A stretch of 34,022 nt of DNA from an uncultured Caryophanales bacterium (lineage in GTDB: Bacteria > Bacillota_I > Bacilli_A > RF39 > UBA660), in contig CAMZHD010000008.1 of NCBI GenBank assembly GCA_947306705.1, positions 1-34,022 of the forward strand. The letters run 5' to 3'. The notes beneath the pieces are model-generated. The model was not told the origin of the DNA. It saw only the letters and a list, made by a program, of their open reading frames with translations, and searched no databases. Numbering within the stretch: the first letter of the stretch is position 1; the number at the start of each line of letters is the position of its first letter. Shown here piece by piece: positions 15,341-34,022 of this stretch. The translations under genes and the position numbers were made by a program.

Positions 15341-15378
15341 TTGATTTCACTTTTTTTTAATGATACAATCATATTGTA
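15341..15378 (+). promoter_or_regulatory. Promoter of the SipW/TasA-like cluster with an inverted repeat overlapping the -10
   Basis: TTGATT (15341-15346), 17-bp spacer, TACAAT (15364-15369). TACAAT-cat-ATTGTA dyad at 15364-15378. Confidence 0.6.
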
Positions 15379-15434
15379 CATAGTAGGAAAGGTGGCATTG
15401 CGTACAACATAATATAGAAACAATGGGTGATTGA

Positions 15435-16136
15435 ATGAAAAATGAGGTAGAAGTAAAGGCCCAAAAAATTTACAAGCGAGAATTGACCAAAAAAAGCGCT
15501 AGAATATTATTTTTACTTTTATTGATTTTTGTGTCAATTATTTATTTGGTTTTATATGTTGTTTACCAAGGTGGAAAGTTTACTGTGTCTTTGGACAAGA
15601 ACTTATCCAATCGGAAGAACGTTTTCTTGTCAGAAACCGGAAAATTTTCTGGAAAGACGAGAGAATTAAGCGCTGAGACAATCCATTATATGGATAATAT
15701 TTCCATTAATTGGTTGCCAGAAGACATCGACCAAGAAAAGACTGGATCGCATAATGGTGATAATTATATTGCTTATACGTTCTATGTTGTTAACGCTGGT
15801 AAAGAAGAGGTTCATTACTGGTATGAAATTGGAATTGATGATAGCATTCTGAGTGTGGATGAGGCTATTCGAATTATGGTTATTCGAAATGGTGAAAGAA
15901 CTGTCTATGCAAAGAAAAGTGCAGTAAATGGGGAAGCCGAGGTTGGTACGAAGAAATTTGCTTCTGAAACATTCGCTGTTTTAGAACAAAGAAAGAATTT
16001 CAAACCTAAATCTAAGGATCGATATACTGTCGTTATTTGGATTGAGGGGGATGACCCAGAGTGTAAAAATGATCTCTTGGGTGGAGAAATAAAAATGCAC
16101 ATGGACTTTACTGAAGAACATATTGATAAGAAATAG
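15435..16136 (+). CDS. TasA/camelysin-like exported protein (putative fibre subunit or anchor)
   Basis: Single N-terminal TM. C-terminal YTVVIWIEGDDPECKNDLLGGEIKMHMDF resembles the end of the next gene product (RIYMWIEGQDVDCEDHASGSSLTFNLQF). Confidence 0.6.
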   Translation: MKNEVEVKAQKIYKRELTKKSARILFLLLLIFVSIIYLVLYVVYQGGKFTVSLDKNLSNRKNVFLSETGKFSGKTRELSAETIHYMDNISINWLPEDIDQEKTGSHNGDNYIAYTFYVVNAGKEEVHYWYEIGIDDSILSVDEAIRIMVIRNGERTVYAKKSAVNGEAEVGTKKFASETFAVLEQRKNFKPKSKDRYTVVIWIEGDDPECKNDLLGGEIKMHMDFTEEHIDKK

Positions 16137-16153
16137 AAGAAGGAGTTATAAAT

Positions 16154-17155
16154 ATGGCAAAGAGAGAAAGAAAAAGTAGGAAAAGAAGAAGAGTTCTTCT
16201 TGCAATCATAATGATATTATTTGTTGGTGTTGTACTAACAACTTCAACATATGCATGGTTTACTGCAAATACTACTGTTACAGTAAGCTCAATTGATGTT
16301 AATGTTTCAACATCATCTGGATTACAAATATCAGCAGATGCAAATGATTGGAAAGCAATCTTAACAAACAATGATTTGTTGAATGCAAACTGGACTGGTA
16401 TTCGTAACCAAATTCCAAATGGAGTTGATGAGGTTACAGTTCCAGTATCAACAGTTGGAGATGTTGATGCAGATGGATATATGCAAATGTATCGTGGTAC
16501 TGTTGAGACTGATAATACTACAGGTAGAAATATTTTAACTGCAGTTAAATCATTAGAAACTCAAGGTACTTCAGGAGATTTCATTGCATTCGATGTATTC
16601 TTCTTATCATCAGAAAGACAAATGATTTACTTAACTTCTGAATCAAGTGTAGTATACAGTGGTTCAGCTGATAAAGGTATTCAAAATGCTGCTCGTGTAG
16701 GATTTATTAAAGAAGGTTCTGTAGCTTACGGATCTACTCCTGCTCAAGCATATGCTATTAAAGGTAATGTTTCTAAGATGATTTGGGAACCAAACTATGA
16801 TGTTCATAAAGCATCTGGTGTAGCTAATGCATCAAGTGTTTATGGAGTTACAACTTCTACAACTGGTGGTTCTAAGTTATCTTATAGTGGTGTTAGAGCT
16901 CCAATTAGTATTACAGATAATGTACCATTAAATTCTACAAGTAGTACATGGTTTGGTCCAGTTACTACTGTTGGTTCAGTAGCATCAGGAATTCCAACAA
17001 CTGCATATCTTCAAATGTTTGAAGTTGAAGAAGGAATTACGAAAGTACGTATTTATATGTGGATTGAAGGACAAGACGTTGACTGCGAAGACCATGCTTC
17101 TGGTAGTTCTTTAACATTTAATCTACAATTCAGTATTAATGATAAAGCTGGATAG
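16154..17155 (+). CDS. SipW-dependent TasA/camelysin-like protein (candidate major fibre subunit)
   Basis: MAKRERKSRKRRRVLLAIIMILFVGVVLTTSTYAWFTANTTVTVSSIDVNVS: SipW-type signal followed by a beta-rich domain and C-terminal WIEGQDVDC. Confidence 0.7.
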   Translation: MAKRERKSRKRRRVLLAIIMILFVGVVLTTSTYAWFTANTTVTVSSIDVNVSTSSGLQISADANDWKAILTNNDLLNANWTGIRNQIPNGVDEVTVPVSTVGDVDADGYMQMYRGTVETDNTTGRNILTAVKSLETQGTSGDFIAFDVFFLSSERQMIYLTSESSVVYSGSADKGIQNAARVGFIKEGSVAYGSTPAQAYAIKGNVSKMIWEPNYDVHKASGVANASSVYGVTTSTTGGSKLSYSGVRAPISITDNVPLNSTSSTWFGPVTTVGSVASGIPTTAYLQMFEVEEGITKVRIYMWIEGQDVDCEDHASGSSLTFNLQFSINDKAG

Positions 17156-17168
17156 AATGATGACTTTT

Positions 17169-17195
17169 AAAAGCCTTCCTAATCGAAGGCTTTTT
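17169..17195 (+). terminator. Rho-independent terminator/attenuator after the TasA-like gene
   Basis: AAAAGCCTTC-ctaatc-GAAGGCTTTT followed by TT. Confidence 0.8.
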
Positions 17196-17213
17196 CTTCT
17201 ATGAGGTGTTTAT

Positions 17214-17348
17214 ATGGATAGTATTCAAGAAATAAGTAATTTAACAGATGAAGAATTATTACAATTGTATCAAATGGTATCTGATCATTTGACTTATTTA
17301 CAAGATAGCATTTTAGATCCTTCTATGGGAGGTGAAGAAGATGAGTAA
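17214..17348 (+). CDS. Small 44-aa acidic ORF
   Basis: MDSIQEISNLTDEELLQLYQMVSDHLTYLQDSILDPSMGGEEDE, preceded by GAGGTG and overlapping the next start (ATGAGTAA). Absent from the ORF track because it is short. Confidence 0.6.
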   Translation: MDSIQEISNLTDEELLQLYQMVSDHLTYLQDSILDPSMGGEEDE

Positions 17349-18963
17349 TCTTGATTCTTTAAAGATTGTAAAAGAAATTAATATCGATAAAAATCATATC
17401 GATAATTTTGTGTTGGAAACAGAAGAGGGAACAAAACGTACAAAGGAAAAGTTCTATCGTCAAGCTGCTGAACAACGGAATGAATATGTTCAAAAGCAAC
17501 AAGAACAATTCAATCTTTATTTAGCAAAAATAAAAGATGAAATGAGAGTTCGTTTCCAACGTGAAAATCCTACGAGTCGTGAAGAAGAACATCAACAAGA
17601 TTTGAAAAAAGTAGATGATTTATTGAATTGTATCTTCTTAAACTCTGATATTTCAGATAGTTTCAAATTAAAAATTGATTTTATTATTGCGTCTATCCAA
17701 GAAACAACGACTTTAGAGGATTTAAATTTGATTTTGAAGAGTTTTATTGATCGTTTTGCGGAATTAGGAATTCCTCTAACGATTGATGATTTTAAATATA
17801 CTATGTTTACAGAACGTTATATGGTTTCCTTTTTAAAGAGTTCTGATTTTCAAGAGATGAAAGATATTTTTGAAAAAATTTATTTTGCATGTCCTGATAT
17901 TAAACTTCAGTTAAAGATGAATTTACTTCATATCGTTCGTAAGTATGAAAAATTATTGAGTATTGGTGTTAGTCAAGTAAAAGCAAAATGCTTCTCTGAG
18001 TGTTCTGTTACACCTGCTAATGTTGTAGACACTTATATTTCTACTCGTTCTAGAGTAGGGACCGATATCGCAGTAGATGAGTATAATAATGCAAATCTAT
18101 TCTTATCAAAGGAAAAGAAAATCGATGATTATTTAGTTGGTTCTGGTTTAAGAGATAAGAATTATAATACATTTGTAGTGGAAGGAAAGACTTATGATTC
18201 TTTAAATGATGATGATAAGATGCGCTTTAATTCTGCGATGATGGGATTTTATCTTACTTTGAATGAACTAAAGAAATACTATCAATATGAGTTTATTATT
18301 ACAGATTTAGTAGAACGTTATAAGAACAAAGATAGTGTTAAGAATCAATATGCTGCGAAGAAGAAAGAAATTGAAAAGGAAGAAAAAGCACGTGAGGCAA
18401 TTTACAAACAATATCAAAAGGCAAATGGTATTGGATTCTTAGCAAAGAAAAATGATGAAAAAGCTCATATGGCTATGAAGCAAATGAATGAACAAATTCT
18501 TAAATTACGTGGATTATATGATGAGTTAGAGGATTTAGCAATTACTACACAATTGGCTAAATTAAATGATTCTGCAACGATTTATGATTTGTTCTTAGCA
18601 TCTCTTACTTCTTTCTCATTCTTAGAGAAATCATTTATGGGAGTAGAGGATTTTGCTTTAAAGAAATTAGAAGATACGGTATATGATTATTTCCGTTTCT
18701 TATATAATCCAAATAATAATTTCTTAAGAAAGATTAATGTATTTGCTGATCATAATATTGCTTCTGTTGTTGCGGAAAAGTATCGTTTATTAGATATCGC
18801 CGTTACACCTGATATGGTTGAAGCAGAGATGATTGCTACTACGATGGAAACAGTAGGTTATATTAATTTAATTCAAAATATTGATCGTTCTAAGATTTCT
18901 TTACAAACAATTTCTAATTTATGTAAGATGAGTGAAATCATAAAAACAGATGATGTTTTATAA
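17341..18963 (+). CDS. Cytoplasmic helical/coiled-coil protein, unknown function
   Basis: Long charged helical segments (EEGTKRTKEKFYRQAAEQRNEYVQKQQEQFNLYLAKIKDEMRVRFQ; KKKEIEKEEKAREAIYKQYQKANG). No TM. Start at the ATG overlapping the 44-aa ORF, with GGGAGGTGAAG upstream. Confidence 0.7.
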   Translation: MSNLDSLKIVKEINIDKNHIDNFVLETEEGTKRTKEKFYRQAAEQRNEYVQKQQEQFNLYLAKIKDEMRVRFQRENPTSREEEHQQDLKKVDDLLNCIFLNSDISDSFKLKIDFIIASIQETTTLEDLNLILKSFIDRFAELGIPLTIDDFKYTMFTERYMVSFLKSSDFQEMKDIFEKIYFACPDIKLQLKMNLLHIVRKYEKLLSIGVSQVKAKCFSECSVTPANVVDTYISTRSRVGTDIAVDEYNNANLFLSKEKKIDDYLVGSGLRDKNYNTFVVEGKTYDSLNDDDKMRFNSAMMGFYLTLNELKKYYQYEFIITDLVERYKNKDSVKNQYAAKKKEIEKEEKAREAIYKQYQKANGIGFLAKKNDEKAHMAMKQMNEQILKLRGLYDELEDLAITTQLAKLNDSATIYDLFLASLTSFSFLEKSFMGVEDFALKKLEDTVYDYFRFLYNPNNNFLRKINVFADHNIASVVAEKYRLLDIAVTPDMVEAEMIATTMETVGYINLIQNIDRSKISLQTISNLCKMSEIIKTDDVL

Positions 18964-18983: not shown

Positions 18984-19886
18984 ATGAGAAAAAGAATTTC
19001 TTTATTTGTAATGACAGTTTTATTATTCTTTTTTCCTATAGTTGCTAGAGCTTATAGTAGTAGTGATTTTGTAGTAGATTTTTCTTATATTCATTATGAT
19101 GTGAATACTACTACAAAAGAGTTATTAGCTTTGCAATTGTTGCTAGATAAAGGAGTATTACATAATACTTCTTTTCGTGATGAAAGTACTCCTGAAGGAT
19201 TTATTCTTGTCTATCATGATACAAAGAAAGGATTGTTATATGTAAATCCTAAAACTGGAGAGTTTCAATCAAAAGAGGGAACATTAGAATATAGTTTATT
19301 GGATGAAGATAAGGAAAAAAATCCTAATTTCAAGAACTATGATAAGATTATTGTTCATTTTGGACCTTTTAAAGGAAATGATTCTGATACTTTAGTTGCG
19401 GATTTTAGTTCTTATCAAAATTTTTTAGATAGTTCTGATGCGGCTCATGTATTATTTGATTATTTATTAGAAAATGGGTTTATTACTTCTAAGAAAGATA
19501 AAGATACAGAGATGGTTTATTTCTACAACAAAGATGGTAAAATGATATTCTCTAGATCCAATAGTAATGAAGCTATTTTTGCTGCTTCTACGAATGTAGA
19601 GGAAAGTGATAATATTACTGTAAATTATGAAGAGTTTAATCCGTATTTTGTGGAAAGATATGGGCATTCTCTTCCTGAATGTTATAAAAAGACATCGTTA
19701 TTATTCCATGAAGTACAAATGAAAAAAGTGGTTCAAGTTGAGAAAGTTGCGGAGAAGAAAACTCGTTCTAAACTAAGTAATGTAGTTCTATGTTTTGTGA
19801 TTTTTCTTGGTACTCTTGGGGTTTGTGTAGGACTCTATTTTGGAGATTGTTGGCTTCATAAAAAAATCATTCAAAAACAGTTATAA
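18984..19886 (+). CDS. Exported protein with signal peptide and C-terminal TM, unknown function
   Basis: MRKRISLFVMTVLLFFFPIVARAYSSSDF (signal peptide); C-terminal SNVVLCFVIFLGTLGVCVGLYFGDCWLHKK (TM plus basic tail). Confidence 0.7.
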   Translation: MRKRISLFVMTVLLFFFPIVARAYSSSDFVVDFSYIHYDVNTTTKELLALQLLLDKGVLHNTSFRDESTPEGFILVYHDTKKGLLYVNPKTGEFQSKEGTLEYSLLDEDKEKNPNFKNYDKIIVHFGPFKGNDSDTLVADFSSYQNFLDSSDAAHVLFDYLLENGFITSKKDKDTEMVYFYNKDGKMIFSRSNSNEAIFAASTNVEESDNITVNYEEFNPYFVERYGHSLPECYKKTSLLFHEVQMKKVVQVEKVAEKKTRSKLSNVVLCFVIFLGTLGVCVGLYFGDCWLHKKIIQKQL

Positions 19887-19919: not shown

Positions 19920-19966
19920 ATGTGCTATAATATAAGTTAGAAGAATAGATAGTGGTGGTGATTAAT

Positions 19967-21187
19967 TTGAAAAGATTAAAGATGATCTTGAAAGCTTTTG
20001 CAACTCTTTTTTTAATCCTATTAGTGTCTTTGTGTATATATACTTTTGTAGTTACGGATATCATGAAGAAGGACTATGTTAATGTCTTTGGATATACGTA
20101 CTTTGTAGTCGCTACCGGATCTATGTCAGGAACGATAGAAGTTGATGATATTATCTTCGTTAAATTAACTGATAAAGTTGAGGTAGATGATGTTATTACT
20201 TTTAAAAGCAAAGATGGAGATATTATTACACATCGATTGATTAAGAAGGATGGTAGCCGGTATGTTACCAAGGGAGATGTCAATAATGTGGTGGATGAGG
20301 CGATTACAAAAGATCAAATCATTGGCCGCGTTGATTTTGTTATTTCTCCTAGTTTTATTTTAAAATCAATCGCCGTATTCTTAATTATTTTTATTCTTTT
20401 GGCATTAGTTAATTTTGACAGTGTTGTTAAAAAGTATATTGTCAAAGGGGATCCTAAAGAGACCCCTAAAATACCGGAAGAATTGTTCTCTTCGAATGCT
20501 ACGATTCAAGAAGATCATTCTGGATTAACCGTTACGATTCGATTAGAAGATGTCGAACAATTAGAGAAAATTCAAGAAAAAGAAGCAGAACAAAGTGAGA
20601 TGGAAACGGTAGAATTACTTGATGAAGAGAGCTTCTCTTTCTTACCAAAGAAAAAGAAAGCTACTTATTTCAAAGAAAAAGAAACTGTAGATTTGGTTGT
20701 TGCCATTTTGAAATGTAAAAAGAATACCGTTAAGGCTAAGATGAATAAGAAATGGCTTACAAAATTCCAATATGTTTATAGACTTTGTCATTTGTTACTT
20801 CTTAAGAATACAGATGCGATGATAGAGGATATTAATCATCCTCCTTTCAAAGAATTATATGATTATAATGTTGATTCTGTTGGATTGACTGAGACCATTC
20901 GAGATCGAATCTTTGAAATGCCAATTTCCGTATTCTTACGAATCTTAACATATTGTATTTTATACAATGATGAAGAGATGTTTGATGGAGTCTATAAAAT
21001 ATTAAAATTTAAAGTATTATTTGATAAAAACAATGATTTTAGAGAGATTAAGAGTGTGGATATGCATACGATTAAACAAATTAAGTCATTGATTCAATTT
21101 ATGAAAAAAGTATCAGAACGTTTTGATAATAAAAATGTTTTTGAACTAGATAAAATCGAAAGATTAGCGAAAATAAACAACTATTAA
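19967..21187 (+). CDS. sipW: SipW-type signal peptidase I (ER-type Ser/His) with C-terminal cytoplasmic extension
   Basis: FGYTYFVVATGSMSGTIEVDDIIFVKLTDKVEVDDVITFK...IITHRLIKK...YVTKGDVNNVVDEAITKDQIIGRV. N- and C-terminal TMs, then about 240 extra residues. TTG at 19967 after a GTGGTGGTG-like RBS is the likely start; 19952 GTG is the alternative. Confidence 0.85.
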   Translation: MKRLKMILKAFATLFLILLVSLCIYTFVVTDIMKKDYVNVFGYTYFVVATGSMSGTIEVDDIIFVKLTDKVEVDDVITFKSKDGDIITHRLIKKDGSRYVTKGDVNNVVDEAITKDQIIGRVDFVISPSFILKSIAVFLIIFILLALVNFDSVVKKYIVKGDPKETPKIPEELFSSNATIQEDHSGLTVTIRLEDVEQLEKIQEKEAEQSEMETVELLDEESFSFLPKKKKATYFKEKETVDLVVAILKCKKNTVKAKMNKKWLTKFQYVYRLCHLLLLKNTDAMIEDINHPPFKELYDYNVDSVGLTETIRDRIFEMPISVFLRILTYCILYNDEEMFDGVYKILKFKVLFDKNNDFREIKSVDMHTIKQIKSLIQFMKKVSERFDNKNVFELDKIERLAKINNY

Positions 21188-21203
21188 AATGGAGGTGAAG
21201 ACA

Positions 21204-24200
21204 GTGAAAGAACTAATGATAAATCAAAAGAAAAAATTTATCCTTTTTGCTGTCTTTTTCTTTGTTTTGACAGTACTTGTTTCTTATTTCCTTTTAACAG
21301 GACGTTTTTCATTTAGTTCTTATGAAGGTGGATGGGATGGACAAACTGTTGCGATTGACTTTGTTGGTGGTAATGGTACTTATGAAAATCCATATATAAT
21401 TTCCACTCCAGAAGAATTTATTTATTTTAAATCTGTTATTGAGGGAGATAGTTCTCTTGGATATCAAGATAAATATTATGTATTAAGTAATGATTTAGAT
21501 TTTAATCAATTTCCATTCTCAAGTATTGGAGTGATTGGAGAAGAATCTGAAAATATCTTTAAAGGACATTTAGATGGGGCAGGACATACACTTCGTAATA
21601 TTGTCATTCAAAATAGTTCTGTTTCCGGAGAAACTTCTTATTATGGTTTATTTAATAAGATGGTAGATGGAAGGGTAGAAAACTTATTAATTGATAATTT
21701 AACGATTAATGTAGAAGAAGAGGAAAGAAAAATCATTGCAGGAAGTTTAGTTGGATTCAGTGATAGTAGTAATCCTGATGAACCTACTTCTTTCTTTAAA
21801 AATATTTCTATTACGAATTATCAAGTAAATACAAGTGGTGCTTCTTCTCCTGAAAATGAAGTAAATGCCTTTATTGGATATGTTACTTCTAGTCAAGGAA
21901 TTCATAATATTATTTTAGAAGGTTCTCTTGTGAATAATGATACTCCTCGAAGTGGTTCTGTGATTGGAGGTAATAGTCCAATTTCTTCTATTATTGATAA
22001 CGTTCATTTAGAGAAATTTGATGGTGATTCTTTAGTTCATGAAGGAATTGAAGAGTACTATTCTATGATTGATGGAGGTATCTATCTAGAGGGTGAATTT
22101 GTTGGAGACGATGCGGTTTTATTCTTATTCAATCAAGATATTAAGAGTGATTATTATTGGGTAAGAGAAAATGGAGTATTCTCTATTCAAATGTATCAAA
22201 GAATTGTAGAAGAGGCTCCTGTTACAGAACAAAGTTTTACATTCTCTATGAGAAGTGCTCCTAACTTTGCCGTTCATGATTCTGGAATTGATACTACAAA
22301 TGGTATTGTTTATATTAATGATTTAGATGCTGATTATGATTATTACATGGGACTTAATTATACAACTCCAAGTGATAGTGATATTCCATCTACTTCTAAT
22401 AAGAACTTATATGGAGATAATAACTTAAAGAAGTTTGAAATTATTTATCGTGGGGCATTAGATTCTACTAGAAAAGGTACCGTTTCTTATGAATCGGGTG
22501 AAAATCAAACAGACTTTATTTATTTTAAGTATTATCCAGTTAGTGGAAACTCTATTGATATTGAGTTAATCGATAATCCATATGCTGGTAGACCATACAA
22601 TATGGGATTTAATGGATGGGTTAGTACAGATAGCAATGTAGTTGTTTACTTAGATGATGATTCGTTTGTATACCATGCTATTGTACCAGTTACATCTAAT
22701 GAGACAGTGGTTGAGTTCTATGCTTCTTGGGTAGAAGCTACTATGGATGATACAGATAGTAATAATGATAGTATTCGTAATGCTCTAGATAGTTTAAATA
22801 ATAAAGCTTTATTAGAAGCAAGTACTTGGGAGATGAGAACACGATTATTACCAATCATTGATAATGATGAATATTATTATACTCGTGTAATTTTAAATCG
22901 AAATGATTCTCAAGCAGGATATTATTCTGCTTATGGAGGAGCTTTGACAGGTACTTGTAATAGTGCTACCTGTACTGTTTATGATAGAGTAACTGCTGGA
23001 TCTGATTGGGATGAAAATACTACTTATTATCACTACTATAACTATGCGATGAGAACGGTTGATCCTAGAGTAGAAGAACAATATCGTGCCGCAACAACAA
23101 TGTATAATGGTATGAATATGGGTGGTTTCTATGAACAAAAAGTTGTTCGTAGAAATGAAAGCATTGATGGATGTCGTAACTTAAGTGGTGCAAGATTAAC
23201 GGGAAATTGTGCCAATGCTTTATGTACTGTTTATTCTTTAATTCCTTTTTATGATGAGAATAATAATCCTAATATTTTGGATGTTGATAAAACATACTAT
23301 TATTTAGTAACAAGAGATACAAACTTTGTTTATTTAAACTCTTATAGTAATACTGCTAATAAAAATTATTGGACATCTACTAAGCCATTTACTTTAACAA
23401 GTTATTATAATGGGGTAGATTCTCGTGCATCTGCTTATTATGATTTTAGTACTACTTATATGAAGGCTGCTGGAGATAATCGAGTAGAATATGTTCGATT
23501 CTATTCCAATGAAGATGGTAGTTATGATGGTGGTTCCTTAACGACAGGAGCTACTGGTAGAGGTATTGTTTATGGTAACTTCCAAAACTTTAAAATAGGT
23601 CGAGGAATTACTTCTAGAAATGGTTATAAATCTGCAATAGCAGTAACTGCTACCGATAATTATACGAAGAGTAGTACTTACTTTAGATTAACGGTTGAAT
23701 CTGGTTCTTATACCTATGGTGGTGTTTTAACATTAAGACGTGATAATGGTACTTGGAACAATCCAAAGGGTCGTGCTGTATTTGGTAGTGATTATGACCG
23801 CGTTAAAAATGATAATAGTAAACTAGAAATTTATAAAACACTCTATGGTAGTATGACACAAACAATTAACTGTTCTGATCATAGTAATAAAGCTTTAGAT
23901 TTAATTATTAAAAGTGGTACTATTGGTCGAATGGGTATTGATGGTACTGTAGGAAACTTAGGTATTTATGTTAGTAGTAACTCTTCTGGTGTTGTAGGAT
24001 GCTCTAATAGTGTAACGGTAGAAGGTGGAAGAATCTTTACGATTTATGGTGGACCTGGGCCCTCTACTTCAATGCAAAACTATAATGCTATCTTTATTTA
24101 TCATAAAGGTGGAGTTACAGATGCTGTCTTTGGTGGAGGAGCTTATCTTACAACCAATGGTAACCGTATTGTTTCCGTTACAGGTGGTACTGTTAACTAT

Positions 24201-27200
24201 GGTGTTGCTGGTGCAAGTAATGGTTATGCAGGAAACGATAATGATAGAAAAGCAATTTTAACGGGAGACTCTTATGTTTATGTCGGAGGACATGCAACAA
24301 TTGGAAATACGACTCTTTCCGATAAATTATATGATATTGATGTAGGTTCTGTATTTGGATCTGCTAATGGTAGAAGTGGATATAATTCTGTTGGTTCTTC
24401 TGATAATTCGTATGTGGTTATCAATGGTGGAACCATTAATGGAAATGTTTATGGTGGAGGTAACTATGGAGCGGTTGCTGTTTCCTTAAATTCTGGTACT
24501 CATGAATCTAAAATTAGTATTGTTAGTGGTACGATTAAAGGTTCTGTCTATGGTGGGGGTAACAACAACGGTGCTGGAAACCCAAGTTATTCTACACAAA
24601 ATACTGTTAATACTTCTATTGAAATGACGGGTGGAACGGTTGAAAAATCCATTTATGGTGGAAGTAGAACGAAAGGAACTGTTTTTGGCTCTTCTAATAT
24701 TCATATTAATGGTGGAAATGTCTTACAAGATGTCTACGGTGGAGGCGAAGGAGGTTATCGAAATAACAATAACCCTGGAACTTATATCCGTAGTGGTGTT
24801 TCTGTTTTAGTGGATAGTGGTACTATCGGTGGAAATGTTTATGGTGGTAGTGCTTATGGATCTGTTAATACCATTAACCAAAATACAAATTCAAGTTCTT
24901 CTACAACAAATGTTGTTGTTAATGGAGGAACCATTACTGGAAATGTATTTGGTGGAGGTAAAGGTGGATCTGTCGATGGAAATAACTATACTCCAAAAGT
25001 TGTTGGTAATATAACTGTTGATATTAACGGTGGATCTATGTCTAAGGTGTTTGGAGGATTTGATGAATCTGGACGACCAAGTAATGGAGATGTCGTTAAT
25101 TTAAATGGCGGAACCATTGGAAATGCTTTTGGTGGAGGAAATAAAACTAGTCAAACGACGACAAATATTAATCTGACTGGATCTACGATTACTGGTAATT
25201 TATATGGTGGATCTAACTTATCAGGAACGGTAACAACTACGAATGTTACTGCTACCAGCGGATCGGTTGCTGAAATCTTTGGTGGTAACAACTTAGGAGG
25301 ATCTACTGGAACAACTAATGTTTCTGTAACAGGTTCTTTAACTGTTTCTGGAGATATTTATGGTGGAGGTAATGAAGCTTCTGTTTCGACAAAGACAAAT
25401 GTCACAATTACCAATGCTACTGTACATGATGTTTATGGTGGAGGTAAAGGTGAAACAAATGATGCTGATGCTAGAGAAACATCTGTTACCATTACTGGAA
25501 CAACTGGTGGATCTGTCTTTGGTGGATCGAATGCCTCTGGTACTGTTGATACAAGTGGAGTAACCATTACAAACTCAACTTTTACAAATGCTTATGGTGG
25601 AAATAACCAAGGTGGAGAAACCGATGAAACTCATATAACGGTTACGGGTATTTCTCAAATAACCAACGTATTTGGTGGAGGAGATAATGCTTCTTCCGGA
25701 GATTCTAATGTAACGATTTCTGGGGGAACGATTACAAATGTTTACGGTGGAGGTAATGAAGCTGGTCTTGATACTTCCGAAGTAACCATCAGTGGAGGAA
25801 CGGTTACAAGTGTATTTGGTGGTTCGAATACGACTGGAGATGTTTCTACTTCTCATGTTTGGGTCAGCAATGATAATGCCCATATTACTACCGTTTATGG
25901 TGGAAATAACTTAGGTGGTACTACTGTTGATACCAATATTGCGATTGCTCAAGGAGAAGTTGGTACTGTTTTTGGCGGAGGAAATAAAGCTCCTGTTGGA
26001 ACCACGACTGTCAATATTGGCGGTGGAACTATCGGTAGTGTTTATGCCGGAGGTAATGAAGCTTTAGTATCTGGAAGTACTTACTTAGATATTGATGGAG
26101 GATCTTTCTCTGGAAGTATCTTCGGTGGAGGTAATGAAGGTTTAGTTAATGGAAGTACAGAAGTCTTTGTTACGGATGCAAATGTTCTTGGAAATATTTA
26201 TGCTGGAGGTAATGGTAGTACAGCCATTGTTCAAGGAGACTCTACTGTTACTATTGATGGAGCAACTGTTGTAGGTACTGCTAGTTCAGATGTTCCTCGA
26301 GAAGGATGCGTATTCGGAAGTGGTAATGCTGCTTCTACTGGAGTTCAAGCAGAACAAAATTCTACAGCAACTGTTAATATTGCTGGTGGAGTTATTTATG
26401 GAAACGTTTACGGTGGACCAAGAATGGCTGTCGTTTATGGAGAAACTAAAACAAATATCGGAATGAGTGCTATTACAAATTCTAATACTTTAACAGAAGA
26501 TGATATTCATATTTATGGAACCGTCTTTGGTGGAGGAGAATCAAACGATACTGGATCTACTAACTTCGACTGGACATTCATCTCTGTTACACAAGGTATT
26601 GATATTAATATTAATGGTACTGGTTATGAAGATCATAGTCATGAATTTATCATTAATGGTAGTATCTTTGGAAGTGGAAATGCATCTTCTTCTTCAGGAC
26701 CTTCTAGTATTTATATTAAAAATCTTGGTACTATGGATCATCCAAACCAAAGTATTTCAATTCAAAGAACGAATGAATTGGTAGTAGATGCTTCTTGTAT
26801 CGAGTTAGCTGGTATTACCGATAGTACGAATGACTATTCTGATATTTACTATTCATTTAACTTAGTTGACCATCTTACAATCAAGAATGGAACAACTTTA
26901 TTACTACAACATAATGCGAATAAACTAGAATCTTTCTATAGTGGAGTGGATTCTGGAGGTACTTTGGTACCTGCTACGGTAACTATTAATGATGATACTA
27001 AGACTGTTACGAAAAATGTTGATAATCGTTTATATATGTTACCAGGACAAGTTCTTAATATTGCGGTTAACCAAGCAGCTACTTCTTATGGTGAAGTCTA
27101 TGGAATGACGTTCTTTGGAATGTATCAAGTAAACGAAGGAAACTATCGTTATGGATTATATGGGCCAACTTATGATTATGGAGATGCGGCTAACGCAAGT

Positions 27201-29312
27201 GCTCAAATCATTGGTGGTAGTTACGTTGTTGGTCTTCGTAAGACTAATCATGATATTACAAAAGATGGATTCTATTCGAATTATTTGAAAGATGGTACTT
27301 TTGATGAAATTAAAACACAATACATCGATCCAGAGGATATCGGAGAAACTGGTTACCAATGGTTGATCGGATTCGATGCTATTAACTATGAATTTACTTT
27401 GACAGCTTCTAAGTATGCTTCCTTAGGTACTTATGAATTACAAATGATTCATTTTGCTGAAGGTAATACTACTTTCAAAGTATTAGGATTCAATGTTGAA
27501 GGTATGGATGATGATGTTACCTTAGTCGATGTTAATGATGTACCAAGAGTTGCGGATACAGAAGAAGAAGCCAATACAATCTTTGGTTTATCTATGAAGG
27601 CTGAAACTTCTGAGTGGACTGGTTATGGTACTACGAAATATCTTGATACCGATGGAGGAGACTTCACAGGAACGGATGAGTATCTAACCGATAATAAAAA
27701 GATGCCGCCATCTCTTATGTTCTATCTATATCATGCAAAGAACATAACGAGAAATGGAAACATTGGTGATGGTATTATCAGTGTTCAAGCATCTATTCCT
27801 AGAAATGCTGTTGAAGATGAAATAAAGTTTATTAATATTACGGTTCATATGAAGGCAAGAGACTTTGGTGATGGAGATAGTTACGATGCTTCTATTACTT
27901 ATGATAAGAAATATGAAATGCCTGCTTTGACAGATGTTAACATTACAAATCAAAGTCAATTTACTGCTTATTTCTCATTAATTAGTTATAATGAACAATT
28001 TAGTAATATTTATGGAAATACAAATTCTTATAAGCATATGTTAATTACAAATGATCCATTACCTGTTAATACGGTTATTACGATGATGGACTTTGGTGCT
28101 GGAACGACTAGACCATTGTACTATTACTATCGAATTACACAAGCGGATTATACGGCTGCTCAAGCAGAAAAAACTCAATATGATGAGTGTACTTATCTGT
28201 TATCGAAGTTTATTAAGATGGATAGTACCAGTTCAACGAATACATATGATGATGCATCGTCGAACTTACTATATTATGATACGAATACTCATCTAGCGGA
28301 TGAAGAGTTTATGTTTATCTTTGACTTTAAAGAAACGAATGTTACAGGTACTCATTTGAATAATCATGTATCCTTTGAATTAAGGGATAGTGATCGATTC
28401 CCAATCTTCATTGTATTAGGAATTCGTGATACACAAATGTATTACAGTACGTATGATAGTAGTAATGCGGTACTACTTCAAACGTTTGCTGGAAATGATA
28501 ATTATTTATATTACAATGTTGAAGATGAGTTTGATTATGCAACTGCGATTCAGTATAATGCGACTGGTAATAATAAACCAGTTATTGATACAAACTATGA
28601 ATCTAGTAAGATGGGTCTAAATGTTATCTTCTTAGATAGTGATGGAGAACAGGTTACATCCAGCTTATTAGTGGGTACAAGTATTAGATTCGGAAGAGTC
28701 AATTACTATGCGGATGGTAATGGAGTCTTTAGAATTAAACTTGCTAATAAGGTATCAAATATTGAAAGACCTGCTGGAATTACGGTAAGTGAATTCTTAC
28801 CACCGGGACAATATACGGTACGATATAGTTTATTTGCTTCTAGTGATGGATTACATAATGCATCTTCTGAAGTGGTTACTCAAGATTTTGTTGTAAATGT
28901 AGTTGGATCTGAAAACTCTATTACAGCAGAATGTGATGATACTACAAAATTAGTTGACGGAGAAACTGGAAAGAATGCGGCTGGCACTACTACTAATACA
29001 TATACTGTTAAGTATGAGTCTCAATTATCAAATCCAAATTTCCGTATTGAGATTTACAAGAGAAACATCGATGATGTAAATTCTATTACTTATACTTCTG
29101 TTCCATTTAGTGATTTATTTACTAATAATTTCACTGTAGTATCTGGAAATGAAGTAAGTTTTACAATGACTGATTCTGAAGAAGATATTGATTTAACTTT
29201 AAATTCTACTTTAACGAGTGGTACTTATCGAGTAGTCTTTAAATTATATGATAATGATCAAGTTATTGATGAAGATATCAAATATGTTATTGTAAAGAAA
29301 AAAATAGAATAG
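21204..29312 (+). CDS. Giant (about 2.7k aa) exported beta-helix-like, glycine-rich repeat protein
   Basis: N-terminal TM (KKKFILFAVFFFVLTVLVSYFLLTG) and GLUG-like segment (GGNGTYENPYIISTPEEFIYF...LDGAGHTLRNIVIQN). Long array of GTIxGNVYGGGN-type turns. GTG 21204 sits after GGAGGTGA; ATG 21189 is the alternative. Confidence 0.85.
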   Translation: MKELMINQKKKFILFAVFFFVLTVLVSYFLLTGRFSFSSYEGGWDGQTVAIDFVGGNGTYENPYIISTPEEFIYFKSVIEGDSSLGYQDKYYVLSNDLDFNQFPFSSIGVIGEESENIFKGHLDGAGHTLRNIVIQNSSVSGETSYYGLFNKMVDGRVENLLIDNLTINVEEEERKIIAGSLVGFSDSSNPDEPTSFFKNISITNYQVNTSGASSPENEVNAFIGYVTSSQGIHNIILEGSLVNNDTPRSGSVIGGNSPISSIIDNVHLEKFDGDSLVHEGIEEYYSMIDGGIYLEGEFVGDDAVLFLFNQDIKSDYYWVRENGVFSIQMYQRIVEEAPVTEQSFTFSMRSAPNFAVHDSGIDTTNGIVYINDLDADYDYYMGLNYTTPSDSDIPSTSNKNLYGDNNLKKFEIIYRGALDSTRKGTVSYESGENQTDFIYFKYYPVSGNSIDIELIDNPYAGRPYNMGFNGWVSTDSNVVVYLDDDSFVYHAIVPVTSNETVVEFYASWVEATMDDTDSNNDSIRNALDSLNNKALLEASTWEMRTRLLPIIDNDEYYYTRVILNRNDSQAGYYSAYGGALTGTCNSATCTVYDRVTAGSDWDENTTYYHYYNYAMRTVDPRVEEQYRAATTMYNGMNMGGFYEQKVVRRNESIDGCRNLSGARLTGNCANALCTVYSLIPFYDENNNPNILDVDKTYYYLVTRDTNFVYLNSYSNTANKNYWTSTKPFTLTSYYNGVDSRASAYYDFSTTYMKAAGDNRVEYVRFYSNEDGSYDGGSLTTGATGRGIVYGNFQNFKIGRGITSRNGYKSAIAVTATDNYTKSSTYFRLTVESGSYTYGGVLTLRRDNGTWNNPKGRAVFGSDYDRVKNDNSKLEIYKTLYGSMTQTINCSDHSNKALDLIIKSGTIGRMGIDGTVGNLGIYVSSNSSGVVGCSNSVTVEGGRIFTIYGGPGPSTSMQNYNAIFIYHKGGVTDAVFGGGAYLTTNGNRIVSVTGGTVNYGVAGASNGYAGNDNDRKAILTGDSYVYVGGHATIGNTTLSDKLYDIDVGSVFGSANGRSGYNSVGSSDNSYVVINGGTINGNVYGGGNYGAVAVSLNSGTHESKISIVSGTIKGSVYGGGNNNGAGNPSYSTQNTVNTSIEMTGGTVEKSIYGGSRTKGTVFGSSNIHINGGNVLQDVYGGGEGGYRNNNNPGTYIRSGVSVLVDSGTIGGNVYGGSAYGSVNTINQNTNSSSSTTNVVVNGGTITGNVFGGGKGGSVDGNNYTPKVVGNITVDINGGSMSKVFGGFDESGRPSNGDVVNLNGGTIGNAFGGGNKTSQTTTNINLTGSTITGNLYGGSNLSGTVTTTNVTATSGSVAEIFGGNNLGGSTGTTNVSVTGSLTVSGDIYGGGNEASVSTKTNVTITNATVHDVYGGGKGETNDADARETSVTITGTTGGSVFGGSNASGTVDTSGVTITNSTFTNAYGGNNQGGETDETHITVTGISQITNVFGGGDNASSGDSNVTISGGTITNVYGGGNEAGLDTSEVTISGGTVTSVFGGSNTTGDVSTSHVWVSNDNAHITTVYGGNNLGGTTVDTNIAIAQGEVGTVFGGGNKAPVGTTTVNIGGGTIGSVYAGGNEALVSGSTYLDIDGGSFSGSIFGGGNEGLVNGSTEVFVTDANVLGNIYAGGNGSTAIVQGDSTVTIDGATVVGTASSDVPREGCVFGSGNAASTGVQAEQNSTATVNIAGGVIYGNVYGGPRMAVVYGETKTNIGMSAITNSNTLTEDDIHIYGTVFGGGESNDTGSTNFDWTFISVTQGIDININGTGYEDHSHEFIINGSIFGSGNASSSSGPSSIYIKNLGTMDHPNQSISIQRTNELVVDASCIELAGITDSTNDYSDIYYSFNLVDHLTIKNGTTLLLQHNANKLESFYSGVDSGGTLVPATVTINDDTKTVTKNVDNRLYMLPGQVLNIAVNQAATSYGEVYGMTFFGMYQVNEGNYRYGLYGPTYDYGDAANASAQIIGGSYVVGLRKTNHDITKDGFYSNYLKDGTFDEIKTQYIDPEDIGETGYQWLIGFDAINYEFTLTASKYASLGTYELQMIHFAEGNTTFKVLGFNVEGMDDDVTLVDVNDVPRVADTEEEANTIFGLSMKAETSEWTGYGTTKYLDTDGGDFTGTDEYLTDNKKMPPSLMFYLYHAKNITRNGNIGDGIISVQASIPRNAVEDEIKFINITVHMKARDFGDGDSYDASITYDKKYEMPALTDVNITNQSQFTAYFSLISYNEQFSNIYGNTNSYKHMLITNDPLPVNTVITMMDFGAGTTRPLYYYYRITQADYTAAQAEKTQYDECTYLLSKFIKMDSTSSTNTYDDASSNLLYYDTNTHLADEEFMFIFDFKETNVTGTHLNNHVSFELRDSDRFPIFIVLGIRDTQMYYSTYDSSNAVLLQTFAGNDNYLYYNVEDEFDYATAIQYNATGNNKPVIDTNYESSKMGLNVIFLDSDGEQVTSSLLVGTSIRFGRVNYYADGNGVFRIKLANKVSNIERPAGITVSEFLPPGQYTVRYSLFASSDGLHNASSEVVTQDFVVNVVGSENSITAECDDTTKLVDGETGKNAAGTTTNTYTVKYESQLSNPNFRIEIYKRNIDDVNSITYTSVPFSDLFTNNFTVVSGNEVSFTMTDSEEDIDLTLNSTLTSGTYRVVFKLYDNDQVIDEDIKYVIVKKKIE
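24020..26700 (+). repeat. Irregular glycine-rich beta-helix-like repeat array (x-[VI]-[FY]-G-G-[GNS]-N)
   Basis: Dozens of [VI][YF]GG[GNS]N turns (GNVYGGGN, SVFGGSN, TVYGGNN, NVFGGGD) at roughly 22-35-aa spacing. Confidence 0.85.
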
Positions 29313-29362: not shown

Positions 29363-29971
29363 ATGAAAAAGGTTTTTCATTGGGTTTGGTCTATTTTAGA
29401 AGTTATTATTATTGTGTATGTTATCATCATGACTGCTTATATTCTAAATAAGAATAAATATGGTTATACACAATTTGGTAATTATACTTTTCATAATATT
29501 AGTTTATTTGATGAAAAGAATGTTCAAAATACGAAAAATGGTGACTTATTAGTTGTTAAGAATTCAAATGACATTAAAGAAGGGGATGTAATTTATTACT
29601 ATGCTCCTTATAATGAAAGTTATATTCTTAGAACGGATGCAGTCGTTGCGATGGAGTCTGATGATTATAGTTCTCTTTACACAGTAGATCATGGAGGAGC
29701 TGTTACAATTTCTAGTAATCGTGTTATTGGAAAATATGCAACAACTTATCATAAGATTGGTGCTGTTGTAGGAGTTCTTGAAAGTAGAATTGGATTCTTA
29801 TTCTTAGTATTATTACCAATTATGATTGTCTTTATCTATCAAGTTTATGAGTTTGTTATCATCCTAAGATATGAAACTGTTGAGGATGAAGCAGAGGAAA
29901 TAAAAGAAGAGAAACCTAAGAAAAAGAAAGAGACTGTAAAGTCTTCTGATGAGGATGTAGAAATTTTATAA
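29363..29971 (+). CDS. SipW-like signal peptidase-fold protein, apparently lacking catalytic residues
   Basis: Co-linear with the 19967 product: YGYTQF..., NGDLLVVKNSNDIKEGDVIYYY, YTVDHGGAVTISSNRVIGKY, flanking TMs. GSM is absent and the ITHRL equivalent reads SYILRTD. Confidence 0.7.
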   Translation: MKKVFHWVWSILEVIIIVYVIIMTAYILNKNKYGYTQFGNYTFHNISLFDEKNVQNTKNGDLLVVKNSNDIKEGDVIYYYAPYNESYILRTDAVVAMESDDYSSLYTVDHGGAVTISSNRVIGKYATTYHKIGAVVGVLESRIGFLFLVLLPIMIVFIYQVYEFVIILRYETVEDEAEEIKEEKPKKKKETVKSSDEDVEIL

Positions 29972-30008: not shown

Positions 30009-30037
30009 ATGGTATAATGATGATAATAGGAGTTAAT

Positions 30038-30658
30038 ATGGAAAATAGAATCAAGATGTACAAATTTATGTCTATTATCATGGTATTATTTTTAATAGCG
30101 TGCTTTTTCTATTTGAATTCAAAATCAACATATACGTTGTATGAATCCAATATTGATGGAAAGTATTCTATTCCTACGTCTAAGATTCATATTACGTTAA
30201 ATGATGTAGATGTTTTTGCCAATGCATCTCCTCTTGATAGTAGTGTGTTTGATAATCATATTATTTGGGATGATTATCACGTTCGAGAGGGAAAAGTAGC
30301 TCCTGGAGCAGCGGGACTTGTTACCTTGGACTTAAATCCAGCAGGGTCTGAAGTTGCTTTATTATTTGAATTTGAATTTATTACGGATAATTTGCCTCAA
30401 GGAATGCATATTGAATATTCCGATATTCAAGCAAACCATATGTTTATACAAACAGGAGAAAATACGTATAGTGGTATTATTACTCTTCCACAGATTGAGA
30501 TTGGAACGACCGTTAATATTTCATTCTGGTTTACATTTGATTATGATGATGATGTAGAAGTTACCTCTTTTGTACCAGAACAAATCCCTGGTTTATTTGA
30601 GATTAATTTCCATGCATATCAATACCAAGGAGAGACAATTGTACCATATTCAGGATAG
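30038..30658 (+). CDS. Small exported beta-rich protein, TasA/camelysin-like candidate
   Basis: MENRIKMYKFMSIIMVLFLIACFFYLNSKSTYTLYESNI (TM/signal), then a beta-rich domain. GGAG upstream. Confidence 0.55.
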   Translation: MENRIKMYKFMSIIMVLFLIACFFYLNSKSTYTLYESNIDGKYSIPTSKIHITLNDVDVFANASPLDSSVFDNHIIWDDYHVREGKVAPGAAGLVTLDLNPAGSEVALLFEFEFITDNLPQGMHIEYSDIQANHMFIQTGENTYSGIITLPQIEIGTTVNISFWFTFDYDDDVEVTSFVPEQIPGLFEINFHAYQYQGETIVPYSG

Positions 30659-30665: not shown

Positions 30666-31280
30666 ATGAAAGAAGCATTTTCAAAAATTCAAAATATTAC
30701 GCTTTTTGAAGAAAAGAAAAGATTTCTTCTTTTTGTGCTACTATTATTTAGCATGTTATTCTTATCTTATTATTTACTAACCGTTGCTTATTCTAGATAT
30801 GAAGTACAAACAAAGATTTTCTCTAATATTGATAAAGCTGTTTATATTTTTAAAGGAGAAGATGTAAGTTTTAACTTGGATCCAGATGGTATTGTTCCAA
30901 GTAGTACTGCTTATTCTTATCGTTTTAGTGTTTCTAACTTTGATGGAGAAACGATGGGAGATGTGGATCTTTCTTATACAGTATCTGTTCGTACAACTAC
31001 GAATTTACCAATTAGTGTTGCGTTATATCGAAATGAATTACCAGAAGCAAGTGGGGCAACGAATATACTAAGTGCTGCGAGAAATGCACAAGATGAAGAT
31101 GGTGCTTGGTATCGAGTTTATGATGTGAATGATGAGTATGAAATGTTATTTGAAGATCAAGTAACGGATGTTTATACGATGGTAATTACATTCCCTGCTG
31201 TTTATAGTAATGATCCAATATACTCTAATTATTTAGAAAATATTGAAGTGTCTCTTCATTCTGAACAGATGATTGCATAG
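30666..31280 (+). CDS. Small exported TasA/camelysin-like protein
   Basis: MKEAFSKIQNITLFEEKKRFLLFVLLLFSMLFLSYYLLTVAYSRYEVQTK, then FSVSNFDGETMGDVDLSYTVSVRTTTNLPISVALYRN. GATAGGAG upstream. Confidence 0.65.
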   Translation: MKEAFSKIQNITLFEEKKRFLLFVLLLFSMLFLSYYLLTVAYSRYEVQTKIFSNIDKAVYIFKGEDVSFNLDPDGIVPSSTAYSYRFSVSNFDGETMGDVDLSYTVSVRTTTNLPISVALYRNELPEASGATNILSAARNAQDEDGAWYRVYDVNDEYEMLFEDQVTDVYTMVITFPAVYSNDPIYSNYLENIEVSLHSEQMIA

Positions 31281-31288
31281 GAGGGCTT

Positions 31289-32224
31289 ATGATGAAATTT
31301 ATTCGAAAACATAAAACTCTTAGTATCCTATCATTAATCTTTTTAATAGGTTTTGTCTTTGTAACGGTTGCTTACGGACGCTATATTCGTAATATTATCT
31401 ATGACTTTATCTTAGAAACAAAGGCATTCTATTTTGATAGTGGAATTTTAGGGGTAAATGAAAAACACTATTCTATTGAAAACTGGGATGGTGTCAATTC
31501 TTATCCATTAACGATTGACTTAACAAATCGAAAAAATAGTAGACGTGTTACCAATACGGATATTGTTTACACAATTTCTGTGGATTGTCCTACAACGGTT
31601 ACTTGTTCCTTAAGTAAAAATGGAGATACCATTCATCCAGAAGAAGATCTTGATACTTTTCAAGTTACTGTATATCCTCATCAAAGTTTCTCAGAAGGGG
31701 ATACGGTTACGGTAGGAGTAACAGTTACTTCTTCCGCTCCTTATGTAAAGACATTGAGTGCTTCATATACGATTGGTGTGGAAAAGAGTAATTTCACGTA
31801 TGAGATTGTGGATAGTTCTAGTTCTAAATATTTAACGGTTAACTTCGTTAATTCGATTGCTTATTATGAAGTAGAAACAGCATTTGGTTCTTATGCAGTA
31901 GGAGATAAGATTAATCTAGATGACTTTATTAATTTGACACCAGCTGAACAAGCAAATTGTTTCTCTGCTATTGTTACTTTAACGTATGATCCTCAAGTAT
32001 TAGAAGTGGATATGACAGATTTAAATTATATCCATCATTTACCAACCAATTATCAAGAACAGACAATTAATGGATTCCAGTATGTTAAGAAATTTTCATT
32101 TAAGATACCGGCAAGTTCTAGTACAAGTGTCTTGTTCTATAAAAACGATGTTTCTCAAAACTATACATATCCAGTTGTCAACCAAACATCGATTGTCCAA
32201 GTTTCTGTCAATAAAGCAGATTAG
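31289..32224 (+). CDS. Small exported TasA/camelysin-like protein
   Basis: LSILSLIFLIGFVFVTVAYGRYIRNIIYDF signal, then LTIDLTNRKNSRRVTNTDIVYTISVDCPTTVTCSLSKNG. Shares the TVAYxRY junction with the preceding gene product. Confidence 0.6.
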   Translation: MMKFIRKHKTLSILSLIFLIGFVFVTVAYGRYIRNIIYDFILETKAFYFDSGILGVNEKHYSIENWDGVNSYPLTIDLTNRKNSRRVTNTDIVYTISVDCPTTVTCSLSKNGDTIHPEEDLDTFQVTVYPHQSFSEGDTVTVGVTVTSSAPYVKTLSASYTIGVEKSNFTYEIVDSSSSKYLTVNFVNSIAYYEVETAFGSYAVGDKINLDDFINLTPAEQANCFSAIVTLTYDPQVLEVDMTDLNYIHHLPTNYQEQTINGFQYVKKFSFKIPASSSTSVLFYKNDVSQNYTYPVVNQTSIVQVSVNKAD

Positions 32225-32281
32225 ACTATTTTTTTCAAAAAAAATATATGTTATAATTTATTCTGTAGGATAGGTGATTAT

Positions 32282-33334
32282 ATGGAAAATTTAATCAGTG
32301 TATTTATGAATTATAAAGTTAATCGCCTTGTCGAATATGGGGTTTTGATTGATGGTCGTGATTCAAAGTTTGTAAGAGAAGTATGGGAACACTATTTCCG
32401 TACTTTTATCGATAATTATTACTATCAAATTTTCCATACTATTGATGCTGATCATTTTACAGAAAAGAACTTAAAAGATGAATTAATTGGTGCGAAAGAA
32501 GAAATGTTAGATGATTATCGTGAATTCGAATTACAAGTTAGTAATGAAGAGTATTCAGGAAATCAACAAATCATTCAAGAATTGGAACCTCTCGCATTTG
32601 ATATCTGCAAAATAGAATTATTAAAGTATGAAGATAAATCTAGTATTCCAGAAGTTGTGACTCATTTTATTGAACAACATGAAGAACTAAAGAGTCGACT
32701 AGATACTCGTTTATCTAAACTTATTACATTGGTACGTGAAACAATTACTACTTGTGATAAGATGATCCATTATGAAGATAATTACTATACTTTATCTGAA
32801 AAGAAATTTGAAAACTATGATAACATTCGTTATATAGAATTAATTCCACAGATTAAAGTATTAGATGTATATAAAAAAGGTATGATTACAAAGATCTACC
32901 AAGATAGTAAATTAGATGCTAAAAAGATGGAATGCTTCCTACAAAAAGTATCTCTTTATATCTTAAAGAAGGTACTTGCAAAAGAAGAAATCAATCAATT
33001 GATTATTCGAGTAGATAGCCCATTTGTTAGTAGAGGGAAATTTGATCCTAAGATGTATCCTTTGATGGATAATCCATTATTTAGGAAATATGTTGTGATT
33101 GGAGTTCCTTATAATACTTATTTATCTCAAAAGGAAGCTTTTGCAGATGACTTTGTATTTGCGTGTATTCAAGACTTTTCACATATTAGTGATATTTATC
33201 AAAAGATATTTAATATCTATCAAGAAGGTATTTTTGATTATTTGATTGTAGAAGATTGTCGATACAGAGAAAGAGAATTCTTCTTGAAGTATGATCAAAA
33301 TGTGTTGAAAGTGTTAGTGTTTGAGGAGGAATAA
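32282..33334 (+). CDS. Cytoplasmic protein of unknown function, adjacent to the ATPase
   Basis: 350-aa ORF with no TM, ending directly ahead of the next start (GAGGAGGAATAATATG). Confidence 0.7.
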   Translation: MENLISVFMNYKVNRLVEYGVLIDGRDSKFVREVWEHYFRTFIDNYYYQIFHTIDADHFTEKNLKDELIGAKEEMLDDYREFELQVSNEEYSGNQQIIQELEPLAFDICKIELLKYEDKSSIPEVVTHFIEQHEELKSRLDTRLSKLITLVRETITTCDKMIHYEDNYYTLSEKKFENYDNIRYIELIPQIKVLDVYKKGMITKIYQDSKLDAKKMECFLQKVSLYILKKVLAKEEINQLIIRVDSPFVSRGKFDPKMYPLMDNPLFRKYVVIGVPYNTYLSQKEAFADDFVFACIQDFSHISDIYQKIFNIYQEGIFDYLIVEDCRYREREFFLKYDQNVLKVLVFEEE

Positions 33335-33335
33335 T

Positions 33336-34022
33336 ATGGATACATTTATACGATTCTTATTTGAATTTATGTCTGTATTCTTTAAGGGTGTTGGAATGAT
33401 ATTTGGTGGTATTTTTAAAGGTATTATTCAATTATTCAATTTTCAAGACTATTGGAATGTAGTAGAATTCTATCGAAAAGATTTTTCAGGAGCAGAATGG
33501 ATCTTTGTTGTGATTGCGATACTTGTAATGCTTGTAATCTTAGGTTTAATTGTATTACTAGTTATATTCTTTATTAAGAAATATGTTAAGTTCCGTAAGA
33601 CTTTAGTAGAACAAGAATCTATGCTTCAAGAAATAGGAGAGTTAAATCGTGAAGTTGCGAATCTTGTAGAAGAAAAAGAAAAGATTTTAGCAATGAAAGT
33701 TTCTCAACTTGGATTAAAACCAGGAGAAGAAGCTACGGTTACTTCTGAAGAGACTGAAAGTACAGAGACCCTTGATGGTGATGTAGATAGTTATCGTTTC
33801 TCTAAATTACATGCGATTGATTTGGAATTTAGAGATTACAAAGTACAAAACTACAACAATACCTTTACTTTGGAAGAGTTAGTAGAGTATTTCAGAAACT
33901 TCTGTGCTTCTAAGTTAAGACTTTACTATACAACGAATATGATTCGTTTGTTTATCTCAGGTTTATCTGCTACTAAGTTAGTTATACTTCAAGGTATTTC
34001 TGGTACTGGTAAAACTTCCTTA
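33336..34022 (+). CDS. Membrane-anchored P-loop (AAA+-like) ATPase, 3'-truncated by the window edge
   Basis: Open to the last base: MDTFIRFLFEFMSVFFKGVGMIFGG...WIFVVIAILVMLVILGLIVLLVIFFIKKY (TM), coiled coil (EQESMLQEIGELNREVANLVEEKEKIL), then KLVILQGISGTGKTSL (Walker A). Not in the ORF track. Confidence 0.75.
   Translation, partial: MDTFIRFLFEFMSVFFKGVGMIFGGIFKGIIQLFNFQDYWNVVEFYRKDFSGAEWIFVVIAILVMLVILGLIVLLVIFFIKKYVKFRKTLVEQESMLQEIGELNREVANLVEEKEKILAMKVSQLGLKPGEEATVTSEETESTETLDGDVDSYRFSKLHAIDLEFRDYKVQNYNNTFTLEELVEYFRNFCASKLRLYYTTNMIRLFISGLSATKLVILQGISGTGKTSL

Follow-up and report, generated by a model that had tools for sequence, protein, structure and literature searches.

Contig CAMZHD010000008.1 of an uncultured Caryophanales gut bacterium is 34,022 bp long, and the whole of it forms the window analysed here (contig C8 of the Bacilli genome G000, which comprises 1.29 Mb and is 75% complete). 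From position 15435 to the contig end the list of open reading frames (ORFs) gives twelve genes, all on the same strand and mostly separated by intergenic gaps of 1–65 bp, in which we recognize a probable SipW-dependent surface-fibre assembly system that includes a membrane-anchored McrB-type ATPase. A sequence-only reading of the window had already described this co-directional block as a candidate fibre assembly locus, and its ORFs and coordinates are as that reading gave them; the coordinates below are on the + strand of the window unless another contig is named. Relatives were drawn from two samples, 147 genomes of the window’s family (nearly one per genus) and 298 Bacilli for the class. 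Eleven of the twelve genes recur jointly in relatives, the exception being an exported protein of 300 residues. None of the locus genes of the window rises above a Pfam family cut-off, most parts have no family in either Pfam or NCBIfam, and profile searches assigned them to no unrelated housekeeping families.

Because the window spans the entire contig and stops at its end, the locus is incomplete here, its last gene, encoding the ATPase (33336–34022), being cut at the Walker A motif. The 3′ remainder was found within this genome on contig C6, whose end encodes the 49 C-terminal residues of the ATPase (G000:C6:37178-37324, − strand), then a DUF2357 protein, another SipW that has both the Ser and the His motif, and a protein with a SipW-type signal (AWFAFS); a protein resembling the locus subunit Sub3 is encoded there on the opposite strand. 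Judged from the loci of relatives, the gap between C8 and C6 would be about 0.7 kb. In most family loci the module likewise ends, on its 3′ side, with a Sub3-like gene in the opposite orientation (L034:5519-6115(−), L062:9076-9660(+), L052:14889-15491(+) and others).

The locus opens with TasA1 (15435–16136), a membrane-anchored TasA-like protein with one transmembrane (TM) helix (residues 24–42), and TasA2 (16154–17155), a TasA-like protein with a SipW-type signal (STYA/WFTAN) that is predicted to be the major fibre subunit. Three small exported subunits follow downstream: Sub3 (30017–30658), Sub4 (30666–31280; signal VAYSRYE) and Sub5 (31289–32224; signal VAYGRY). The Sub4 ORF opens at 30570, and its true start is probably 30666, which fits the relatives. 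A motif scan found the SipW-type motif in 92/102 TasA2 and 22/22 TasA3 proteins and in only 5/54 TasA1 proteins, this last count including the noise of the regular expression; TasA1 of the window has no such cleavage motif, and a window protein scores just under the cut-off of NCBIfam TIGR04088, a test for SipW-type signals. A G-x-F-T/S-V strand is conserved after the TM helix of TasA1 (YQGGKFTVSL in the window). Since the cleavage site is rare and this strand is conserved, TasA1 probably stays membrane-anchored, and we predict that it forms the base or anchor of the fibre. Throughout Bacilli TasA1 serves as a conserved marker for the system, and it has a C-terminal W-I/L-E-G-x-D motif in common with TasA2 (86% over 34 columns in a profile comparison). 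The number of TasA2 copies per locus varies from one to seven in the gene maps of the family, with seven in the relative L051; a lone extra TasA2 paralog lies away from the locus in the source genome (L063:7797-8789; G000:C19:15796-16788).

The sequence-only reading had counted about five small exported proteins like TasA or camelysin. The five ORFs are there, and the connection to the TasA/camelysin family PF12389 runs through Sub3, whose profile aligns near full length (3–171 of 185 positions; E 1e-8) with a PF12389-positive protein; a PF12389 protein (E 8e-9) also lies within the locus of a relative (L154). As regards the donor-strand jelly-roll of TasA fibres, the predicted structure of TasA2 is β-rich (pLDDT 75, moderate confidence) but resembles no solved structure significantly. 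The window subunits are likely members of the TasA fold family. Searches of the TasA1 and TasA2 profiles against the PDB returned nothing usable, the sole TasA1 match being that of its TM helix to a designed repeat protein.

Immediately 3′ of TasA2 lies a hairpin with a T-rich tail (17169–17194), a probable terminator or attenuator that would divide the subunit genes from the assembly genes. Terminator-like sites are no commoner across the whole window than in shuffled sequence, so that support for the hairpin comes from its conserved position: of the 24 loci in which TasA2 adjoins Hel543, 17 have a similar hairpin at this place, with varying stem letters but intact pairing. With the hairpin in this place, TasA1–TasA2 transcripts would exceed those of the assembly genes, as a major subunit would require.

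Two signal-peptidase homologs lie between the subunit genes. SipW (19952–21187) is an endoplasmic reticulum/archaeal-type signal peptidase with both the Ser motif (TGSM) and the His motif (ITHR) and a cytoplasmic C-terminal region of ~250 residues; it reaches the cut-off of NCBIfam TIGR02228 (archaeal-type signal peptidase), and the SipW-type assignment proposed earlier stands. Catalytic motifs are present in 45/48 SipW proteins, the exceptions being two fragments and one variant of the His motif. SipL (29363–29971), which matches SipW weakly, had been read as a paralog without recognizable catalytic residues, and the wider comparison agrees: the window copy lacks both motifs, the Ser and His pair occurs in 0/38 homologs, and the pseudo-enzyme state is thus found in every SipL-bearing locus. 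Hel350 (32282–33334), a cytoplasmic helical protein of 350 residues, directly precedes the ATPase gene, and only 1 bp separates the two genes of the window. Seven loci, from six relatives, have Hel350 fused to the C-terminus of SipW, and because these fusions join the peptidase to a protein whose gene adjoins that of the ATPase, the peptidase would be sited near the ATPase. SipW is fused to Sub4 in two loci (L039 and L095).

The largest gene (21189–29312) encodes the β-helix-like giant of the earlier reading. Its 2707 residues comprise one N-terminal TM signal-anchor, G/T/S-rich repeats with a period of ~25 residues (within residues 950–1780) and a conserved C-terminal domain, and it is predicted to be a stalk or adhesin. 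Hel543 (17332–18963) is a cytoplasmic, all-helical protein of 543 residues that is specific to the family, with homologs in 34/147 family genomes and none in the sole congener sampled; a fold search against the PDB gave nothing significant. Like Hel350 it recurs in relatives, as befits the cytoplasmic helical proteins first listed as parts of the locus. The 300-residue exported protein (18984–19886) is present with its C-terminal TM helix as described, but we dropped it as a core member: it is unconserved in relatives, the protein at the same position in L033 is unrelated, and the gene is probably accessory.

Profile searches in relatives find these genes together, as linked sets, in tens of genera, a result clearly contrary to the refuting condition of the sequence-only reading, by which relatives would not have the genes in company. 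Within the family, a strong TasA1 match occurs in 37 genomes and the ATPase in 42, with both in 36 and the ATPase only in 6 (n = 147; p 7e-27); across the class, 64 of the 66 TasA1-positive genomes have the ATPase (n = 298; p 8e-34), both p-values being from a Fisher test that does not account for shared ancestry. Where TasA1 and the ATPase stand on the same contig (n = 53), they lie within 10 kb of each other in 52 cases, at a median gap of 2.8 kb. A chance neighbourhood is rejected by this co-occurrence, and a mobile-element origin was not supported, since plasmid and phage records hold the McrB core only and none covers 80% of the query. The family gene maps read TasA1, TasA2 (one to seven), Hel543, SipW, giant, SipL, Sub3–5, Hel350, ATPase, DUF2357, SipW2 and TasA3, with rearrangements, and in one genome (G104) the TasA1 part and the ATPase part are ~58 kb apart on one contig and both retained. 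The patchy spread and rearranged gene order argue against a single inherited accident. Of 20 ATPase loci from eight other Bacilli families, 18 have SipW together with TasA1 and/or TasA2 next to the ATPase–DUF2357 pair. The core set is TasA1, TasA2, SipW, the McrB-like protein, DUF2357, SipW and a TasA-like protein, to which the window’s family adds the giant, the pseudo-peptidase, further subunits and the two cytoplasmic helical proteins. The named genomes among the sampled Bacilli are Acholeplasma laidlawii PG-8 and A. brassicae 0502, and the core is present in the former, a wall-less, cultured relative of the mycoplasmas (locus L129, at about 1.026–1.037 Mb of the chromosome). The locus genes are almost certainly one functional system.

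Some distant loci have neighbours of their own. Proteins with GGDEF/EAL domains, often as a pair of ~460 and ~800 residues, lie beside the core in 13/20 distant loci (a raw count; L129, L126, L127, L130, L124, L125, L139 and L141 among them) and in none of the window’s family; in these distant loci the fibre may plausibly be under control of a cyclic-di-GMP type. At the end of the A. laidlawii locus, a 745-residue protein with a SipW-type signal and a match to the carbohydrate-binding module CBM5/12 (L129:4448-6682(−)) is a candidate adhesin. In a sister type of locus (L081–L085 and L091), the ATPase–DUF2357 pair is followed by a TM protein of ~430 residues with DxDGDGxxDINID repeats; some of these loci have SipW and other proteins with AYF signals nearby, and one adjoins Tad-pilus-like genes. 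Upstream of the locus in the window itself are a MucBP-repeat surface protein of 1596 residues (5673–10463) and an SH3-YkuD L,D-transpeptidase (10556–11803), neither of which is kept with the locus in the maps of relatives.

The ATPase of the window begins with a TM helix (residues 64–82) and a charged, coiled-coil helical stretch, for which Pfam gives a sub-threshold FtsL match (E 0.013–0.04) and the similarity to FtsB is weak. In relatives the full-length protein has 500–520 residues, with a TM helix near residue 70, the charged helical stretch, Walker A (GISGTGKTS), Walker B (LDEMN) and the motif INNDDS. N-x-D-D occurs in 48/49 copies with a readable motif (INNDD, ANKDD, ANRDD or ANNDD), and Bell et al. 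(PMC11090510) describe the NxD signature as one that E or D usually follows; the NxD assignment of the window ATPase rests on these relatives, because the motif falls past the window end. The ATPase profile matches Escherichia coli McrB structures in the PDB (E 1e-5), and the positive charges after its TM helix would place the AAA+ domain in the cytoplasm. The gene after the ATPase encodes DUF2357, the N-terminal domain of McrC, with PF09823 above the Pfam cut-off for the C6 copy and for relatives, although the DUF2357 profile did not find McrC in the PDB. What had been called a membrane-anchored P-loop ATPase can therefore be refined to a McrB-type NxD AAA+ nucleoside triphosphatase (NTPase) with a DUF2357 partner. 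In the main text of the eLife 2024 census, CoCoPALM denotes a McrB clade with an FtsB-like N-terminus that is linked to signal peptidases; a pilus link is predicted there and its description deferred, in one paragraph that leaves fibre subunits unnamed (PMC11090510). Beyond this paper, the literature searched contained on CoCoPALM only a preprint of the same work. Signal-peptidase genes lie alongside in 19/20 distant and 24/28 family loci within 6 kb. Since its ATPase is a McrB-type AAA+ protein with a DUF2357 partner, we provisionally assign the locus to this named but undescribed association, with which it has in common the NxD NTPase with an N-terminal TM helix and a probable coiled coil, the DUF2357 partner and the signal-peptidase neighbours; the substrate set, the non-catalytic SipW, Hel350 and Hel543, the giant stalk and the EAL neighbours are described here over and above that main text (PMC11090510).

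An McrB-like NTPase also invites a reading as anti-phage defence, in which a relative of Type IV restriction and CoCoNuT systems would use the NTPase as effector and the TasA-like proteins, secreted or in the membrane, as sensors or decoys. In the census CoCoNuTs are predicted to be defence systems (PMC11090510), and besides the McrBC family the NTPase matches the PADLOC candidate model PDC-M26A (L034:1475-3034; E 1e-39), so that defence-finding software would label the locus a phage-defence candidate. The AAA+ domain and the DUF2357 regulator are indeed homologous to those of McrBC, whereas the NTPase here is membrane-anchored, the locus has no recognized DNA-binding specificity domain, and Pfam found neither PF10117 nor another nuclease domain in the DUF2357 proteins, a degenerate nuclease fold not being ruled out by that search. 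Signal peptidases and exported subunits adjoin the NTPase in nine families, and amplification of a subunit gene is expected of a structural protein; we regard a defence role as unlikely.

The arrangement points instead to a pilus-like fibre assembly system with the McrB-type AAA+ protein and DUF2357 at work on the cytoplasmic side of a complex of signal peptidase and subunits. SipW matures TasA, which polymerises through N-terminal donor strands (PMC9674648). By analogy, TasA2, TasA3 and the small subunits would be exported with SipW-type signals, and cleavage by SipW after the membrane helix would free an N-terminal β strand to complete the next subunit. Polymerisation would proceed onto TasA1, whose retained TM helix and lack of a cut site suit a fibre base, and the giant may form the distal stalk or adhesin. 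SipL may hold substrates or regulate SipW, Hel350 may link SipW to the AAA+ ring, and the ring, stimulated by DUF2357, would control or power subunit release or fibre growth. The same absence of a cut site in TasA1 and the N-terminal TM helix of the giant could also be accommodated by a specialised machine for secretion or for the processing of membrane proteins, its AAA+ ring extracting or sorting the substrates of SipW and the exported proteins standing singly at the surface rather than as a polymer; SipW, its pseudo-enzyme and an AAA+ protein in one complex would resemble such a machine. The serial duplication of TasA2 and the conserved hairpin right after it better fit an abundant structural subunit, and we think this alternative quite unlikely. 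Very unlikely is a plain TasA-like matrix operon beside an independent regulatory or defence pair, for although Bacillus TasA fibres are described without an ATPase and the McrB-like/DUF2357 pair keeps other partners in the sister type, accidental linkage sits poorly with the class-wide co-occurrence despite rearranged gene order, the retention of both parts in G104 and the fusion of SipW to Hel350, the neighbour of the McrB-like gene.

The locus resembles tapA-sipW-tasA of B. subtilis and TasA-CalY-CapP of B. cereus in its SipW-type peptidase, small subunits with SipW-type signals, anchor-like partner and, in one relative, a PF12389 member. Those systems are without an ATPase, DUF2357, a pseudo-peptidase and a giant, and the subunits here are far diverged. 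The earlier proposal of a machine larger than tapA-sipW-tasA is correct. No locus gene has a Pfam match to the parts of a Type IV or Tad pilus (prepilin signal, PilB/TadA-type ATPase, PilC); apart from the locus, a type IV prepilin-like N-terminus, KGFTLIELLAAVVILGVLA, occurs in the same genome (L062:1-1071(−), on C6).

Several points weigh against a powered fibre. The McrB-like/DUF2357 pair occurs in six family genomes that lack a strong match to TasA1, and in most of these its partner set is a different one. None of the window subunits matches PF12389, and a PDB search with the TasA2 model gave nothing significant, an archaeal bundling pilus (7ueg) ranking fourth (E 0.23, template-modelling score 0.16). 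No fibre has been seen; what the analysis establishes is the coherence of the genes, the active state of SipW and the pseudo-enzyme state of SipL, the McrB/NxD identity, the SipW–Hel350 fusions and the SipW-type signals, whereas polymerisation, the TasA fold, the function of the NTPase and the adhesin role are inferred. No ATPase is known to be needed by B. subtilis TasA fibres, and a motor role is for that reason only a candidate. We nevertheless hold that the product is likely an extracellular filament, and lean slightly towards a direct action of the AAA+ protein on assembly. More tentatively, the system may represent a widespread, distinct class of Bacilli pilus, wall-less Acholeplasma included, in which an McrBC-derived motor drives or gates the growth of a TasA-like fibre through SipW by an NTP-driven, peptidase-coupled, donor-strand mechanism.

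The novelty of these findings is bounded by the earlier naming of CoCoPALM; as far as the literature searched shows, the parts list, the near-perfect link to TasA1, the pseudo-peptidase, the SipW–Hel350 fusion and a cultured carrier are added here. Defence-annotation models such as PDC-M26A would tag the locus as anti-phage, which calls for caution. The question is directly testable, because the core lies in the laboratory-grown A. laidlawii PG-8. If the proposed reading is true, a family of motors studied for its part in the restriction of nucleic acids has been co-opted into a machine that makes protein fibres or serves secretion. TasA-type fibres, for which no energy source has so far been described, would then also exist in a powered or gated form, one common among the Bacilli of gut and rumen.

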